Source of the DNA: an uncultured Hyphomicrobiaceae bacterium
Lineage (GTDB): Bacteria > Pseudomonadota > Alphaproteobacteria > Rhizobiales > CALHAX01
Direction: 5' to 3'
DNA length: 64,000 nucleotides
Assembly (NCBI GenBank): GCA_937931785.1
Contig: CALHAX010000039.1
Span: 1-64,000, forward strand
Below the pieces are notes generated by a model. It was given only the letters and a program-made list of their open reading frames with translations, was not told the origin of the DNA and searched no databases. Shown here one piece after another: positions 18,340 to 26,172 of the stretch (its first letter is position 1; every line of letters starts with the position of its first letter). Position numbers and translations under genes: made by a program.

Positions 18340-18978
18340 TTAGCGTTCAAGCAGCCCTTCGATTGCTAAAAGTGCTGCCTGGAACGCTGCTTCTATATCC
18401 AAATCCGTGGTTTCCAGCAAGACCGCATCTTCGGCTTGCGCCAGAGGGGCAACCTCACGTTCCAGGTCACGGCGATCGCGGTTACGGATTTCGCCCTCAA
18501 CCTGATCCCGCGTGACGTCAAAGGTCTTCGCGCGCAACTCATGATAGCGGCGCCGGGCACGCTCTTGCAGGGTTGCGGTTACAAACAATTTGGCACTGGC
18601 GTCCGGGCAGACGATGGTCCCGATATCGCGACCGTCAATCACGGCCCCAGGTGGCGTTGCGGCGAAATCCCTCTGATATTGCAGGATTGTGTCGCGGACT
18701 TCGGGAATGCGAGCCACTATGGAGGCTGCTTCTCCAACGCCACGATCGCGCAGAAACGGATCGTCCAGAGTGTCTGGATCCAGGTTTCGAGCTACCGCGG
18801 TGGCTGCCACCGCATCGCGAAGATCGCCGTTGGCGGCCAGCACGTCGCGGGCGACGGCCCGGTACAGCGTTCCTGTGTCGAGGTACCTCAAGCCGTAGTG
18901 CGCTGCGATGCGTTTGGCCAATGTGCCCTTGCCTGAGGCTGCTGGCCCATCGATTGCGATGATGAGAGGACGGGTCAT
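18340..18978 (-). CDS. cmk: (d)CMP kinase
   Basis: IAIDGPAASGKGTLAKRIAAHYGLRYLDTGTLYRAVA; PPGAVIDGRDIGTIVCPDA. Confidence 0.96.
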   Translation of the reverse strand: MTRPLIIAIDGPAASGKGTLAKRIAAHYGLRYLDTGTLYRAVARDVLAANGDLRDAVAATAVARNLDPDTLDDPFLRDRGVGEAASIVARIPEVRDTILQYQRDFAATPPGAVIDGRDIGTIVCPDASAKLFVTATLQERARRRYHELRAKTFDVTRDQVEGEIRNRDRRDLEREVAPLAQAEDAVLLETTDLDIEAAFQAALLAIEGLLER

Positions 18979-20327
18979 GCGGTGCAGTCTCCGGTGGCAC
19001 GAATATCGGCGCCAAGATCGTTCATGAGGTTGTTGAAGCCAGGAAAACTGGTTGCGATCATGGTTCCGTCGTCCACTGTGATGGGCTGTTCCGCAGCCAA
19101 ACCCATGATCAGGAATGACATCGCGATGCGGTGATCCAACTCGGTTTCGACTTCGGCACCGCCGTTAACCGTTCCGTCTGGCCCGCAGCCGTGAACGGTT
19201 AACGTGGATTCGGTTTCGTCTGCCGTGACCCCGCAGGCTCGAAGCCCCTTCGCCGTCATGTCCAGGCGATCGCATTCCTTGACCCGGAGTTCTTCCAGTC
19301 CGGCCATGTGGGTGGGGCCATCTGCGAACGCGGCAACAACCGCAAGGACCGGATATTCGTCGATCATGGATGGTGCGCGATCATCGGGAACCGAGACGCC
19401 CTTGAGCGGCGATGAAACAACAATGAGATCGGCAACGTCCTCACCGCCTTCCTCGCGACGGTTCATGATTTCGATTTGTGCGCCCATTTCAGTAACCGTG
19501 GTGAGGAATCCGGTGCGCGTGTCGTTCATCAGGACGTTTGTGACGGTTAGTTTTGATTCGGGGATAATCAGTGCGGCTGCGATCAGGAACGCGGTCGAGC
19601 TCGGATCTCCCGGGACGTTGATGTGCAGGCCTTGGAGTGTCGGTTGTCCGATGACCGTAATTACGGTGCCTTCAGAACTGTCCGTTGTCTTCACCTGCGC
19701 CCCAAATGCCCGCAGCATGCGTTCTGTGTGATCGCGGGTTGGAATTGGTTCGACGACAGATGTCTCACCTGCTGCGTGCAGGCCAGCAAGCAGAACGGCT
19801 GATTTTACTTGTGCCGAGGGAACGGGCAGAACGTAACGGATCGGCACAAGATCGCCGGGGCCGGTGATTGTCAGAGGTAATGTGCCTTTGGCGTTCGATT
19901 CAGAGCCGTCGACTTGCAATCCCATATCCCGCAGAGGGTTGAGAACGCGTTCCATCGGACGTTTTGAAAGTGACGCGTCGCCGATCAGTTTTGCCTGGAA
20001 ATTCTGGCCTGCAAGAACGCCCATCATCAGCCGTACTGCGGTGCCGGAGTTTCCGAAATCGAGAGGCGTGTCCGGCCTTCGAAGGCCGCCAATGCCGCGA
20101 CCAACCACACGCCATTGCTCCGCATGCTCCGTGACGGGAACCCCCATTGCCCGCAGGGCATCTGCTGTTGCAACAACATCCTCGGAGCGCAAAAGGCCGT
20201 CTATGGTTGTCTCGCCGATCGCGAGGGCCCCGAACAAGAGCGCGCGGTGAGACATCGACTTGTCGCCGGGCGCACGAATCTCGCCTGCGAGCGGTCCCCC
20301 GCGTCGCGCGACCAGTGGTTCGGACAT
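18975..20327 (-). CDS. aroA: 3-phosphoshikimate 1-carboxyvinyltransferase
   Basis: EIRAPGDKSMSHRALLFGALA, LDFGNSGTAVRLMMG; likely start at MSEPLVARRGG (20327) within the longer ORF. Confidence 0.95.
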   Translation of the reverse strand: MSEPLVARRGGPLAGEIRAPGDKSMSHRALLFGALAIGETTIDGLLRSEDVVATADALRAMGVPVTEHAEQWRVVGRGIGGLRRPDTPLDFGNSGTAVRLMMGVLAGQNFQAKLIGDASLSKRPMERVLNPLRDMGLQVDGSESNAKGTLPLTITGPGDLVPIRYVLPVPSAQVKSAVLLAGLHAAGETSVVEPIPTRDHTERMLRAFGAQVKTTDSSEGTVITVIGQPTLQGLHINVPGDPSSTAFLIAAALIIPESKLTVTNVLMNDTRTGFLTTVTEMGAQIEIMNRREEGGEDVADLIVVSSPLKGVSVPDDRAPSMIDEYPVLAVVAAFADGPTHMAGLEELRVKECDRLDMTAKGLRACGVTADETESTLTVHGCGPDGTVNGGAEVETELDHRIAMSFLIMGLAAEQPITVDDGTMIATSFPGFNNLMNDLGADIRATGDCTA

Positions 20328-20537
20328 TTTGAAGACCTCAGTTCGGAGTGTGCCGGGGTACAGATTTGACCATTGTGCCCGGAGCTTGCTGGCAAATAAC
20401 AATGGGTTGGGCGGGACTGTCAACGCGTCGGTTCTTGCCGGGTGCCATCACGAAGGTTTTGACAGTCGATCCCGTGTCGTGGCAAGGGAGCGTCAATCCA
20501 ATTTTCAGTTGTTCCCAGAACCCGAAAGAGGCCACCA

Positions 20538-20903: not shown

Positions 20904-20965
20904 GACATGACCAAGTCGTCGGTATAAATTATTCGATCAAGACTTGATGTTTTTCCACAGTCTTG

Positions 20966-20998
20966 AGCCCGCCGCAGACCCTGCGGCGGGCTTTTTGT
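20966..20998 (+). terminator. Rho-independent terminator
   Basis: AGCCCGCCGCAG-acc-CTGCGGCGGGCTtttttg: 12-bp perfect stem, 3-nt loop, T-tract. Confidence 0.93.
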
Positions 20999-21165
20999 TT
21001 TGATTTTTAAAGATTTTGACCGAAATATTTGCTGCAATTGACTCGAATACTATGGATTTTGCTTTCAGCGCGAGTCATGATGATCTCTCGTTATCTCATG
21101 TATACACGGATTTTCTTATGTAATTCGTCAGTATCAGATCGTGAGATTTCAAGTTAAATTGGGGC

Positions 21166-21189
21166 TGCAACAAATAAATGCTTGTTGCA
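21166..21189. promoter_or_regulatory. Inverted repeat upstream of autoinducer synthase-like gene
   Basis: TGCAACAA-ataaatgc-TTGTTGCA, perfect 8-bp arms, about 17 nt upstream of the probable ATG (21206) and just before GGAG. Confidence 0.5.
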
Positions 21190-21205
21190 AGACTTGGAGT
21201 TTGAA

Positions 21206-22498
21206 ATGCTGGATAAGCGGAACATGGACAATTCGTCCGAATGCGGCACAATCCTAAGCCCGAATGACCCCGCCTTCCTGCACGATCGTATCCAACGTTA
21301 CTATACCAAACGTGTCGAGGAAGCCTGGGCAGGTGGGCATCCGATGAAGGGACGATCGCCGCAGCCGGGCGACATACAGCTTCGCACGAACGACTACCTT
21401 TGCCTTGCCGGTCATCCGATGGTCATCGCCGCGGAAATCAAAGCCCTGCGGGCTGACGGGCATGGTGCAGCTGTTTCCCGGGTCTGGCTGCATCAGGAGA
21501 AGGATACTCTCTCTGTCTTTGAAGAACGGCTGGCCGGCGTTGTTCAGGCGGAAGAAACGGTGCTTTGCAACTCCGGGTATTGCGCCAATGTCGGGTTGAT
21601 CCAGGCCATTACCGAGCCAAATGCGCCTGTGTATATGGACATGAAGGCGCACATTTCCCTTTGGGAAGGTGTCTCAAGCGCGAAAGCTACGGCCGTTCCG
21701 TTTCGCCATAACAGCGCTGACCACCTTGAGCGACAAATTAAAAAGCATGGTGCTGGCGTGGTTTGTGTCGACGCGCTTTACAGCACGGACGGGAACGTCA
21801 GTCCGCTTGCGGACATTCTGGACATTGTTGAACGACACGGGTGCGTTCTGGTTGTTGATGAAACGCATTCCTTTGGCGCGCACGGCAAGGATGGTGGTGG
21901 ACTTTGTGTTGCCCTTGGCATTGCGGATCGTGTGCATTTCCGCACGATCGGTCTGTCGAAAGCCGTTGCCAGTCGGGGCGGTGCGATAGCGTGCTCGTCC
22001 CGCAATGCGGAGTACTTCAGGTATGAAGCTTTCCCGGTGATATTCAGTACCTCGGTGCTTCAGCACGAGGTTGCCGGCTACAACGCTGTTCTGGACGTCA
22101 TTCAGAAGGAAACATGGCGACGGGACCGGCTACATAAAAGCCATGCCTACCTTCGGGATGCTCTGGATAAACTTGGCTATAATGTCGATGCATCGCAGCA
22201 TCAGATCATTGCGCTCGAGGCGGGAAACCAGCTCGATACAATCAAGTTTCGAGATGCCCTCGAGTCTCGTGGCGTATTTGGAGCGATTTTCTTTCCGCCG
22301 GCTACACCGGAGAAGCGTTGTCTGATCCGGTTCACCGTGAACTGCGGGCACACACGCCAGGAGCTGGATCACGTGATTTCCGTATGCCGAGACATCCGGG
22401 ACGAGGTTGATCTCGCAAACTGGCCGTCGACAAGACGCAAAAGCAAGACGCTTGCTCCCGTTAAAGATCATCCGAAACGGGCACGTGAAGCGGCATAG
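21206..22498 (+). CDS. Alpha-hydroxyketone-type quorum-sensing autoinducer synthase-like protein (CqsA/LqsA family, alpha-oxoamine synthase fold)
   Basis: PLP-dependent alpha-oxoamine synthase features (NDYLCLAGHPMVI, VLVVDETHSFGAHGKDGGG, RTIGLSKAVASRGGAIACS); flanked by CqsS/LqsS-like kinase and LqsR-like regulator. RBS CTTGGAG then ATG 21206. Confidence 0.85.
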   Translation: MLDKRNMDNSSECGTILSPNDPAFLHDRIQRYYTKRVEEAWAGGHPMKGRSPQPGDIQLRTNDYLCLAGHPMVIAAEIKALRADGHGAAVSRVWLHQEKDTLSVFEERLAGVVQAEETVLCNSGYCANVGLIQAITEPNAPVYMDMKAHISLWEGVSSAKATAVPFRHNSADHLERQIKKHGAGVVCVDALYSTDGNVSPLADILDIVERHGCVLVVDETHSFGAHGKDGGGLCVALGIADRVHFRTIGLSKAVASRGGAIACSSRNAEYFRYEAFPVIFSTSVLQHEVAGYNAVLDVIQKETWRRDRLHKSHAYLRDALDKLGYNVDASQHQIIALEAGNQLDTIKFRDALESRGVFGAIFFPPATPEKRCLIRFTVNCGHTRQELDHVISVCRDIRDEVDLANWPSTRRKSKTLAPVKDHPKRAREAA

Positions 22499-22542
22499 AA
22501 CGGCAAGATATGGGATGATCGGCTTTCCGGCCTATTGTTCAG

Positions 22543-22633
22543 GGTGTGTTCGATTTAAATGGCGATGCCGCGATGCCAGTGGAACGACTTGGGTCGTGGC
22601 GTCATGAGTCCATTTGAATCAGGCGCGCTATAG
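22543..22633 (+). repeat. 91-bp interspersed element, copy A (inverted relative to copy B)
   Basis: ggtgtgttcgatttaaatggcgatgccgcgatgccagtggaacgac...gcgtcatgagtccatttgaatcaggcgcgctatag; same length as the reverse complement of 33951-34041 with 14 mismatches on direct alignment by eye. Confidence 0.88.
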
Positions 22634-22652
22634 GGTGCGTGCTGATGACCGT

Positions 22653-24041
22653 TCAAGACCTTTGCATACGGTTACTTAGATCATCCACGGACGTGTCTGC
22701 GGGAACAGACGGGAGCGTGATGGTGAATTCTGCTCCTTTTCCTGGGGCAGACCGACATGACAGCGTACCGTCGAAGCTTTCGACGACAAACTTCGAAAAT
22801 GCCAAACCGATACCTGTGCCCTGGCCTTGCTTCACGCCTGTAAAAAAAGGCACGAAAATGTGAGGTAGAATGTCTGGTGGGATACCTGGACCGTTGTCTG
22901 CAACGATGACCTTGTTCGTTGCAGCCCCTTTTTCCAGGCGAATGGTAATTTGCCCGCCCCCCGAAGCCTCCAGCGCGCGTAGTCCGTTTTTGAGCAGATT
23001 GAAAAGTGTGTGAACCAGCAGCAGATCTGATCCGAAGAATTCAAAATCATCTTCACTGTCAAACACGACGCGTTCACTTTCGCCCGGACGGAAGTGATAT
23101 CTATGAAGCGTATCCGTGATAACGCCATGTACGGAGTGCTTGTCGAAAATTCCAGCCGAGAGGTTTTCCTGCCCGGCATTGACCAGAAGCATGTCGATGA
23201 CAAGGTTCGCAGACTGCGTGTGATCTCGAATACGTTCCATCGAGGAGCGCAATCCGCCAGCCTGTCGTGAGCTCAATCGACTGCCTTCATAACCGTTCTG
23301 GAGGGCCCACTCCAAGGCTTCTGTCAGCTTGGGAATGTGTTTATTGGCCCGTTCTGCATCGAACTTTATGCCGAGCAGCGGCGTCCGCATCTCATGGGCG
23401 ATGTGGCTTGCAAGGCGTGACGCGGCCTGCATTTTTTCATCTGCAATCCGGCTGTCGCTGTAGTTCAAGGCCACGAGGCCAGTAAGGGCAAAGGCCACGA
23501 TCGGTATCAATTGCAGTGCATCCGGCGGTATCGGTGCGCCCCCTGTCGTGAAATGGAATGTCAGCCATCCGAGCACCGAGCCAACCACGGCGACAACAAT
23601 CATGTTCACGCTGTCATACAACAGGGCCATGTAAACGAATGCCGCCATGGTCGACACTTGCCATACCGTGCTGGCATCGTTCATGAGCAACATGAAAACA
23701 AAGAAGAACGGCAATGCAAAGATGAACGATATATAGGAGTAGGCTGGGAGGTAGCGGCGCCAGGCAGGTGGCCAATGATCCGAAAAGCCAAGTGCCAGAC
23801 TTACCAGAAATCCGCAGGCGCGTAGTGACGGACTCTCGTAGGCTTGCGGCGAGATCCACGTATAAAGAACAAAGAACAGTGGAAATCCGATGATTCCCAG
23901 GAATGCCGCCATCTGAACCTTATAAGCTGCAAGTGTGTGAAATGCGACGTAACGGCCCCATATCCTGCGCACAAATCTGATACTTGCCAACGCAGGACGA
24001 AACCGCCGAAGCCGTTCGATCGAAGCGAAAGATGAGCGCAT
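22653..24041 (-). CDS. Membrane sensor histidine kinase, CqsS/LqsS-like
   Basis: Multiple N-terminal TM segments, H-box LASHIAHEMRTPLLGIKFDAERANKHIP, N/G boxes (NLLKNGLRAL, VIVADNGPGIP, GIGLAFSKFVVESFDG). Confidence 0.85.
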   Translation of the reverse strand: MRSSFASIERLRRFRPALASIRFVRRIWGRYVAFHTLAAYKVQMAAFLGIIGFPLFFVLYTWISPQAYESPSLRACGFLVSLALGFSDHWPPAWRRYLPAYSYISFIFALPFFFVFMLLMNDASTVWQVSTMAAFVYMALLYDSVNMIVVAVVGSVLGWLTFHFTTGGAPIPPDALQLIPIVAFALTGLVALNYSDSRIADEKMQAASRLASHIAHEMRTPLLGIKFDAERANKHIPKLTEALEWALQNGYEGSRLSSRQAGGLRSSMERIRDHTQSANLVIDMLLVNAGQENLSAGIFDKHSVHGVITDTLHRYHFRPGESERVVFDSEDDFEFFGSDLLLVHTLFNLLKNGLRALEASGGGQITIRLEKGAATNKVIVADNGPGIPPDILPHIFVPFFTGVKQGQGTGIGLAFSKFVVESFDGTLSCRSAPGKGAEFTITLPSVPADTSVDDLSNRMQRS

Positions 24042-24137
24042 GGTTTCTTAAATCCGGGGAGTTGCGGACCGGTTTGAGGCCCAAGTGGAACAGCCAAGAC
24101 CTGTGTATTCTGTTCAAACACACTAGGATTGGCTTTA

Positions 24138-24168
24138 TTGCACAAATTCGTGCAAGAGAACTTGCAAG
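24138..24168. promoter_or_regulatory. Inverted repeats in the kinase/regulator divergent promoter region
   Basis: TTGCAC-aaattc-GTGCAA (24138-24155) followed by palindrome CTTGCAAG (24161-24168). Confidence 0.4.
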
Positions 24169-24230
24169 AATGAGTGCATGCGGGTGATTACATGTTGCCT
24201 GTTTGACAAACGAGAAACACTTCTGACGAA

Positions 24231-25238
24231 ATGCTTCCATTTTACCATCCAACATCTATTGTCGCGCTGGATGACGATCCGCTGTTCTTGGAAAGCTTTG
24301 CGTTCCATTTTGGCGATGATTTCGTCTGCAAAACGTTCACTCAACCAGAGAAAGCCCTTGGTTTCTTCGAGGAAACGCGTGCGTTCCAGACACTTGGTGA
24401 GGACTTTTTCTCTTCGGACACCGGTTTGCTGGATCGTGTCGGGCAAAGTTCTGCAGACCAGTTGATCAAGATGGATGGGCAGCAACTGTCCGGTGTCATG
24501 AGCAACCCGGGGCGGTTTCAGCAGATTTCCTTGCTGGTTGTCGACTATGCAATGCCCGGCATGAACGGTGTTGAAGTCTGTCGGCGGTTGAAGGGTCATC
24601 CGGCGCGCAAAATTCTCCTTACCGGGAAGGCCGGTGAAGAAACTGCGGTCAAAGCGTTCAACGAAGGTATTATTGATTGCTTCCTGATGAAACAGATGGC
24701 GGATCTGCCGCGTGTGCTGGATCAGGAAATGCGCCAGTTGCAGCGTAAGTATTTCCTTGATCTGACTGCGCCGCTGCAAATGGCACTTGGTGTTCAATCG
24801 CGTGATCTGGCGCGGCACGGAGCGTTCAACGACCACTTTACGAAGGTATTCGAAGCGCGCGGCATCGTGGAATATTATCGTCATACAAAACCATCAGGAA
24901 TCGTCATGATAAGCGATGATGGAGACCTGATGTTTCTGGTTGTTCAGGATGCGGATACGGTGCGCTCGTCACTGGAAATCGCTCGGGATCAAAGTGCTCC
25001 GGCGGAACTCATCGATCTCCTGGCAAGCGGCACGGTGATCACATTTTTCCCCAAAACCGAACATGCTTATGAGCCCGCGTTTGAGGCGTCATGGCGTGAT
25101 CATGTCTGGCCTGCTCAAAAGATCGGTGACGATGATAGCTATCACGTCAGCCTGATCAGCGGGAATGATGTCGCGCGGTATCTGGATACGCCGATTGCGA
25201 CCTTCGCGACATTTCGGGATGAGCTCGACGCCGCTTGA
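24231..25238 (+). CDS. Response regulator, LqsR-like (expanded receiver domain, no recognisable DNA-binding output domain)
   Basis: SIVALDDDPLFLESF acidic pocket, phosphoacceptor LLVVDYAMPGMNGVEVCRRLKG, KILLTGKAGEE; about 90 residues between acidic pocket and phosphoacceptor Asp; divergent from the kinase. Confidence 0.8.
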   Translation: MLPFYHPTSIVALDDDPLFLESFAFHFGDDFVCKTFTQPEKALGFFEETRAFQTLGEDFFSSDTGLLDRVGQSSADQLIKMDGQQLSGVMSNPGRFQQISLLVVDYAMPGMNGVEVCRRLKGHPARKILLTGKAGEETAVKAFNEGIIDCFLMKQMADLPRVLDQEMRQLQRKYFLDLTAPLQMALGVQSRDLARHGAFNDHFTKVFEARGIVEYYRHTKPSGIVMISDDGDLMFLVVQDADTVRSSLEIARDQSAPAELIDLLASGTVITFFPKTEHAYEPAFEASWRDHVWPAQKIGDDDSYHVSLISGNDVARYLDTPIATFATFRDELDAA

Positions 25239-25281
25239 GATGAGGGTGTGTTACGGGGCCTCTCCTTCGTAGAAGCCGCCC

Positions 25282-26112
25282 TTAAGTCAGCGCCTGCATC
25301 GCCATATATCCGCTTGCGACGATGAGCAACATTCCTAGCGGTGCAGTAACATGATCCTCGCCGAATGGGATTTTTTCAATCAGCATGATGATCATGGCAA
25401 CTGCCATCCAGATGATGTTCATGACGCCGCCGACGAATGCGAGCAGCATAAGAGCCCAGCAACACCCGAGACAATATAGTCCCTGTTTCAACCCCATCTG
25501 AATAGCACCTGCTAACCCGTCTCGCCACATCCCCATGAACGTTGCGAATGGGGACCGGCATTTGGAGAGGCAGTTTTCCTTCAGCGTGCTAAACTGATAA
25601 AGACCGGCGACGAGTAGAAACGCTGCGGACAACCAGGGCCATTGACTGACGAGTGAACCATCGAGGATCACTGTTCTCGACAAGGCGATCTGGAGCCCTG
25701 TTGCAAAGCATGAAAACCCCAACCAGATCATTCCATAGCCTGCAATGAGCGCCCAGATCTGGCGCGGTGGAACCTTGGTCGGGTTTCCTTTCGAGAACTC
25801 GATGTACGTCGCGATCAGTGGAATTGCGGTTGGCAACATCATTGCGATCGACATGGTCGACCACATGGCAAGGATCCGGACAAACGGCCCCCACTCCCCA
25901 TTCTGGAGTTCGGCCTCAGTCAAAGGGCGGCAGATGTTGCCGATCGAAAGCGTGACTGTTTCTGTCAACGTTTCGAAGATTGACATGCCGGGCCCGAGCG
26001 CACCCGCCGAAACAACGCGTGCGAGTTCCAGGCTCATAAGCGCGAGAAAAGCCCAAGCAGCGAGCACAATACCGCCAAGAGGGAGCCAGATGTGTATGGC
26101 GCGGTTGCTCAT
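25282..26112 (-). CDS. DUF2182-type multi-pass membrane protein
   Basis: Several TM helices, WSTMSIAMMLPTAIPLI, GLKQGLYCLGCCWALMLLAFVGGVMNIIWM motif typical of the family. Confidence 0.8.
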   Translation of the reverse strand: MSNRAIHIWLPLGGIVLAAWAFLALMSLELARVVSAGALGPGMSIFETLTETVTLSIGNICRPLTEAELQNGEWGPFVRILAMWSTMSIAMMLPTAIPLIATYIEFSKGNPTKVPPRQIWALIAGYGMIWLGFSCFATGLQIALSRTVILDGSLVSQWPWLSAAFLLVAGLYQFSTLKENCLSKCRSPFATFMGMWRDGLAGAIQMGLKQGLYCLGCCWALMLLAFVGGVMNIIWMAVAMIIMLIEKIPFGEDHVTAPLGMLLIVASGYMAMQALT

Positions 26113-26172
26113 GAAGCGTTGAACCTTGTCGTAATGTGTCGTTGCGATATCAGATCGTGGATTGCGTTCCGG

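Follow-up and report, generated by a model that had tools for sequence, protein, structure and literature searches.

Does a three-gene locus in an uncultured Hyphomicrobiaceae bacterium (Alphaproteobacteria, Rhizobiales; assembly GCA_937931785.1) encode a quorum-sensing system that uses alpha-hydroxyketone (AHK) signals? The window analyzed here is the stretch of 64,000 nucleotides from positions 1 to 64,000 of contig CALHAX010000039.1, in which the lqsA, lqsS, and lqsR genes are mutually adjacent at 21206-25238. The initial annotation had described three contiguous genes in the order synthase (+), kinase (-), and regulator (+), and we found the open reading frames arranged in this way. From profile, phylogenetic, and structural comparisons of the three products, we consider it very likely that the locus is a complete Lqs-type AHK quorum-sensing module.

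The synthase scored 504.5 bits against the NCBIfam equivalog model of AHK synthases (NF005526, cut-off 428), whereas it stayed below the cut-offs of the models for bioF (255 bits, cut-off 426), kbl (204, cut-off 460), and 5-aminolevulinate synthase (ALAS; 169, cut-off 339); the serine palmitoyltransferase model gave a significant score far under its own cut-off. The closest PDB entry was CqsA of V. cholerae (3hqt, E 1.6e-89), with Kbl behind it (E 4e-41), and the lysine K252, predicted to carry pyridoxal 5'-phosphate (PLP), is surrounded by the motif LSKAVASRGG. An IQ-TREE phylogeny of 35 sequences placed the synthase inside the beta/gamma Lqs/Cqs clade (support 99/95), together with proteins from Salinisphaera, a Pseudomonadales metagenome-assembled genome (MAG), and other Proteobacteria, and with CqsA-type sequences (f204) that appear Vibrio-like, judging by their hybrid kinases of 680-730 aa. 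E. coli BioF, E. coli Kbl, and the ALAS-like gene of the same genome lay outside this clade (outgroup separation 100/99), as did the synthases of Tistrella and other Alphaproteobacteria, and the nearest named relatives were gammaproteobacterial (Salinisphaera and Pseudomonadales, 50-54% identity). Nine positions distinguish 31 AHK synthases, in which they are conserved, from three outgroups, and all nine are kept in the synthase (Q133, Y143, W153, G182, R257, R349, G359, A366, and T367); because they were chosen from an alignment that included this protein, they support its membership and do not prove it. It is hardly credible that the gene codes for one of the usual alpha-oxoamine synthases (BioF, Kbl, ALAS, or serine palmitoyltransferase) and lies here by chance beside an unrelated two-component pair, since the shared fold and the significant bioF, serine palmitoyltransferase, and Kbl scores are outweighed by the model cut-offs, the fully supported separation in the tree, and the AHK-specific residues, which together rule out BioF, Kbl, and HemA, and by neighbors of the LqsS and LqsR type. 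These comparisons assign the synthase to the LqsA/CqsA family.

The kinase contains a HATPase_c domain and a HisKA domain that scored just under the Pfam cut-off (23.6 vs. 26.9), and the predicted phospho-acceptor H216 is surrounded by the H-box motif SHIAHEMRTPLLGIK. The protein stops after HATPase_c and carries no fused receiver, which places it in the LqsS subtype and not in the CqsS subtype. It shares 36-38% identity over about 400 residues with the kinases of the Salinisphaera and Pseudomonadales lqs clusters, and it groups with Salinisphaera in the tree with moderate support (89/93). In the structural model, six N-terminal helices (39-63, 71-85, 92-120, 125-141, 144-166, and 173 onward into the dimerization helix) have the arrangement that is known from CqsS and LqsS. 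The roles of ligand-contact residues were taken from the literature, according to which CqsS recognizes the C3 head group of the ligand through W104 and S107 (PMC3376566). W127 and S130 of the kinase align with these two residues and F184 aligns with CqsS F162; in an alignment of 11 kinases, the three positions show little or no variation. In the sixth transmembrane helix, V182, F184, G188, and L192 occupy the positions of CqsS F160, F162, F166, and C170 and are nearer to LqsS (I/F/A and L), so that the aligned pocket mixes CqsS-like and LqsS-like residues. The kinase is thus classified by its sequence in the LqsS/CqsS family, and its ligand may have a CAI-1-like head with room for a longer tail.

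Residues 4-334 of the regulator aligned with L. pneumophila LqsR (PDB 6sy9) in a phmmer search (E 1.1e-41), the second-best match being a receiver domain (E 1.6e-5), and the C-terminal half by itself also matched LqsR (E 5.4e-9). We modeled the regulator with AlphaFold2 (mean predicted local distance difference test score 80.9), and the best PDB match of the model in Foldseek was again LqsR 6sy9 (E 1.8e-25, TM-scores 0.75/0.81), while the remaining matches were mostly receiver-only. The equivalent of LqsR D108 is D105, which shows no variation among 11 sequences. The output domain of LqsR is reported to have a degenerate diguanylate-cyclase-like fold in which no activity was detected (PMC10653808). 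Sequence and predicted fold agree that the regulator is a full-length LqsR-family member with the output domain included. The family assignments of the initial annotation, which had proposed a CqsA/LqsA-type synthase, a CqsS/LqsS-related kinase without a fused receiver, and an LqsR-like regulator, are thus borne out; none of the sequence findings that it had named as refuting them (a synthase within HemA, BioF, or Kbl, or a kinase and regulator unrelated to CqsS/LqsS and LqsR) was obtained, and both the PLP region and the H-box that it had pointed out are present.

The same trio occurs together in 12 further loci (L027-L031, L067, L068, and L071-L075), including those of Salinisphaera and the Pseudomonadales MAG. 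An LqsS-like kinase lies beside LqsR in 32 other loci, upstream on the same strand in 31 of them and convergent in the remaining one (L084); the small class of G414, with one regulator match in 78 genomes, added nothing on gene order. Several observations weigh against reading the locus as a horizontally gained Lqs-type module. Among the pairs sampled, only the window has kinase and regulator in divergent order, and their pairing therefore rests on homology and adjacency. The tree leaves the nearest branch of the regulator ambiguous, and substrate, product, signal switch, and phosphotransfer are drawn by analogy with Vibrio and Legionella. The cluster has a GC content of 0.535, slightly lower than the mean of 0.562 for the window, and values this low occur in 43 of 600 stretches of the same size.

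The divergent order, set against the 31 co-directional pairs, could mean that the lqs set is genuine and the regulator decoupled, serving other inputs, so that kinase and regulator form no working pair. LqsR-family genes without a synthase in many genomes, and the precedent proposed for PhcX in Ralstonia (PMC10653808), would fit such a situation. However, kinase and regulator are adjacent and intact, H216 and D105 are kept, and the genome has a single LqsS-like kinase and a single LqsR, which makes decoupling very improbable. The divergent order touches regulation at most and represents no new mechanism.

Elsewhere (L083, L084, L085, and many of L143-L172), the retrieved stretches contained an LqsS-LqsR pair but no synthase, in genomes of both classes that were mostly small; such pairs are possibly listeners to foreign AHKs or rewired pairs. 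The Legionella lytica plasmid pLlyPCM2298_2 (L097:4971-8160) carries an LqsR-family regulator close to a HAMP-type histidine kinase, the retrieved stretch containing no synthase, and similar plasmid copies were found in L. anisa, L. sainthelensi, and L. longbeachae.

If the module works as its relatives do, the synthase would couple an acyl-CoA of medium or long chain length with a substrate derived from an amino acid, which in CqsA is S-adenosylmethionine; the resulting amino-ketone or enamine would be converted to a 3-hydroxyalkan-4-one by host enzymes. The lipophilic signal would build up and bind within the membrane domain of six helices, moving the kinase toward phosphatase activity; phosphotransfer would involve kinase H216 and regulator D105, and the output domain of the regulator would then alter gene expression. 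By analogy with CAI-1 biosynthesis, maturation of the AHK probably needs a reductase encoded outside the locus. The initial annotation had called the system complete and self-contained; the three-family set is there, but "self-contained" is too strong, because the maturation reductase is apparently not encoded at the locus.

Compared with known systems, the window is most like the Salinisphaera and Pseudomonadales clusters (L027-L031), which also have an adjacent synthase, a receiver-less six-helix kinase, and LqsR, with the highest identities seen (synthase 50-54%, kinase 36-38%, and regulator 29-34%). Their kinase and regulator genes are co-directional and usually overlapping, whereas those of the window are divergent, and one of these MAGs has an MMPL transporter adjoining the cluster, which the window does not. 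L. pneumophila, with the order lqsA-lqsR-hdeD-lqsS, likewise has a separate kinase and LqsR, but there the two are convergent around hdeD (PMC3376566), and LqsS S111 is replaced by W127 in the window kinase. No hdeD-like gene is present in the 21206-25238 cluster, as the initial annotation had stated, but this is no distinguishing feature because hdeD is restricted to the L. pneumophila cluster (PMC3376566). Vibrio CqsA is the closest PDB relative of the synthase, and the equivalents of CqsS W104/S107/F162 are kept in the kinase; CqsS, however, is a hybrid kinase feeding LuxU/LuxO, whereas the window kinase is receiver-less and lies beside an lqsR gene, and the gatekeepers of the sixth transmembrane helix differ (V182/G188/L192 vs. 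F160/F166/C170). The free-living betaproteobacterium Janthinobacterium has the same three families side by side as JqsA/JqsS/JqsR, and JqsA is functional by mutant complementation (PMC3566124), whereas the function of the window synthase is predicted. In other Alphaproteobacteria (Tistrella, G001, G187, G281, and G359), AHK-family synthases occur in synthase-only or synthase-plus-kinase loci with no LqsR nearby, outside the Lqs/Cqs clade of the window synthase. Clusters of lqs genes have already been reported in Alpha-, Beta-, and Gammaproteobacteria (PMC10653808); we found no experimental study of an alphaproteobacterial AHK system in the literature searched, the coverage of which was incomplete.

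How did the module come to lie here? Among 385 genomes sampled from the same class, the synthase cut-off was passed by 8 and an LqsR-like gene was found in 11, and the genome of the window was the sole member of both lists. The window regulator falls outside the clade (98/97) that unites eight LqsR proteins of other Alphaproteobacteria, and all three lqs proteins are closer to gamma- and betaproteobacterial homologues than to other alphaproteobacterial ones, which makes horizontal acquisition probable. In two genomes of the same order, G776 (L137) and G752 (L134), TIGR02300 adjoins the series HpcH-PdxY-DUF429 without lqs or PpoB2 genes, the junction holding no gene of note in G776 and two small unrelated open reading frames in G752; an insertion next to aroA/TIGR02300, as had been proposed, agrees with this. 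The lqs module was probably gained horizontally from a gamma/beta lqs lineage and came to lie between TIGR02300 and the gene of the HpcH/HpaI family (Table 1). The mild difference in GC content gives weak support for transfer, and composition was dropped as strong evidence. The alternative, that the locus is old, vertically inherited in the order, and lost by relatives, is unlikely: it would agree with the mild GC difference and with the finding that the segment has no mobile-element genes or notable flanking repeats, but no synthase was found in the sampled genomes of the same order, the affinities of the three proteins point to gamma/beta lineages, and relatives show the site without lqs genes.

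A mobile-element border of the segment was rejected, as no notable flanking repeats were found. A phage-borne origin was also rejected, with no relatives in viral contigs, where the first query was sensitive to close relatives only. In many relatives of the same order (L132, L133, L135, L136, L138, L139, and L140), a tRNA-Ala(GGC) gene lies just 3' of TIGR02300, on the side of the lqs insertion, and it is present neither in the window nor in the retrieved stretches of G776 and G752. Integration at a former tRNA site downstream of TIGR02300 is conceivable.

Table 1. Features of the lqs locus and its surroundings in the window
Feature	Position	Strand	Remarks
aroA	18975-20423	-	
TIGR02300	20538-20903	+	
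Segment missing at the TIGR02300-HpcH junction of two same-order relatives	20904..26172	.	lqs genes and PpoB2/DUF2182 gene
AHK autoinducer synthase (LqsA/CqsA family)	21206..22498	+	430 aa; predicted PLP lysine K252
Six-transmembrane sensor histidine kinase, LqsS-like, without fused receiver	22653..24041	-	462 aa; predicted phospho-acceptor H216
Intergenic region kinase/regulator, 189 bp	24042..24230	.	From gene coordinates; promoters for both genes presumed
LqsR-family response regulator	24231..25238	+	335 aa; predicted phospho-acceptor D105; C-terminal output domain
PpoB2/DUF2182 gene	25282-26112	-	

The left flank of the lqs genes consists of rpsA, cmk, aroA, and TIGR02300, and the right flank of the PpoB2/DUF2182 gene, an HpcH/HpaI-family lyase, and a pyridoxal kinase. 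The synthase and kinase genes are convergent and 154 bp apart, and the kinase and regulator genes diverge from a 189-bp gap. A promoter scan of the locus gave the same site count as shuffled sequence, so no promoter is demonstrated in this gap, and promoter and terminator predictions were dropped as evidence, with the exception of one terminator. This strong-looking intrinsic terminator (20965-20993, +; 13 pairs, 10 of them G-C, with a T-rich tract) lies just 3' of TIGR02300, between that gene and the lqs segment.

The presumed divergent promoters, together with CqsS head residues (W127/S130) and an open LqsS-like tail pocket (V182/G188/L192), might mark the module as an Lqs variant distinct to Alphaproteobacteria, which would respond to another AHK, such as a long-chain amino- or enamine ketone, and serve as a private channel of the lineage; we regard this as possible but doubtful.

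Transporters of the MMPL family were observed beside AHK genes in other genomes. In G281, a single frame of 1191 aa (L059:8938-12513) combines an MMPL-family transporter (Pfam E 1.6e-30) with a C-terminal AHK synthase, and a second AHK-synthase frame lies immediately upstream (L059:7523-8938), its first ~60 residues matching the transposase domain DUF772. Such an exporter-synthase fusion would hint at an exit route of oily AHK signals. In Pseudomonadales MAGs (L027:12838-15453 and L032:4034-5272), an MMPL transporter beside the lqs kinase gene has 35% identity to the fusion partner of G281, and may represent a second link between MMPL genes and AHK clusters. MMPL matches in the genome of the window are distant only, the best one being on a different contig. 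A gene of the fatty-acid-hydroxylase family directly follows the synthase in a Pseudomonadales MAG (L027:9218-10039), and its product could modify the signal.

A LuxI search of the genome of the window gave no match, but control genomes gave none either, and the absence of acyl-homoserine-lactone signaling is therefore only suggested. Overall, the observation of the initial annotation was correct, and its interpretation was correct in essence. AHK signaling has been studied mainly in Vibrio, Legionella, and a few Betaproteobacteria, and a complete lqs set in an alphaproteobacterial genome without a LuxI match offers a further natural system for signal identity and the role of LqsR. Because alphaproteobacterial lqs clusters have already been reported (PMC10653808), the picture of the family is unchanged; the locus is a good further example of a known system and not a new type of system, its variant features are modest, and it adds a well-documented case of whole-module acquisition in which the site without the module is visible in relatives.

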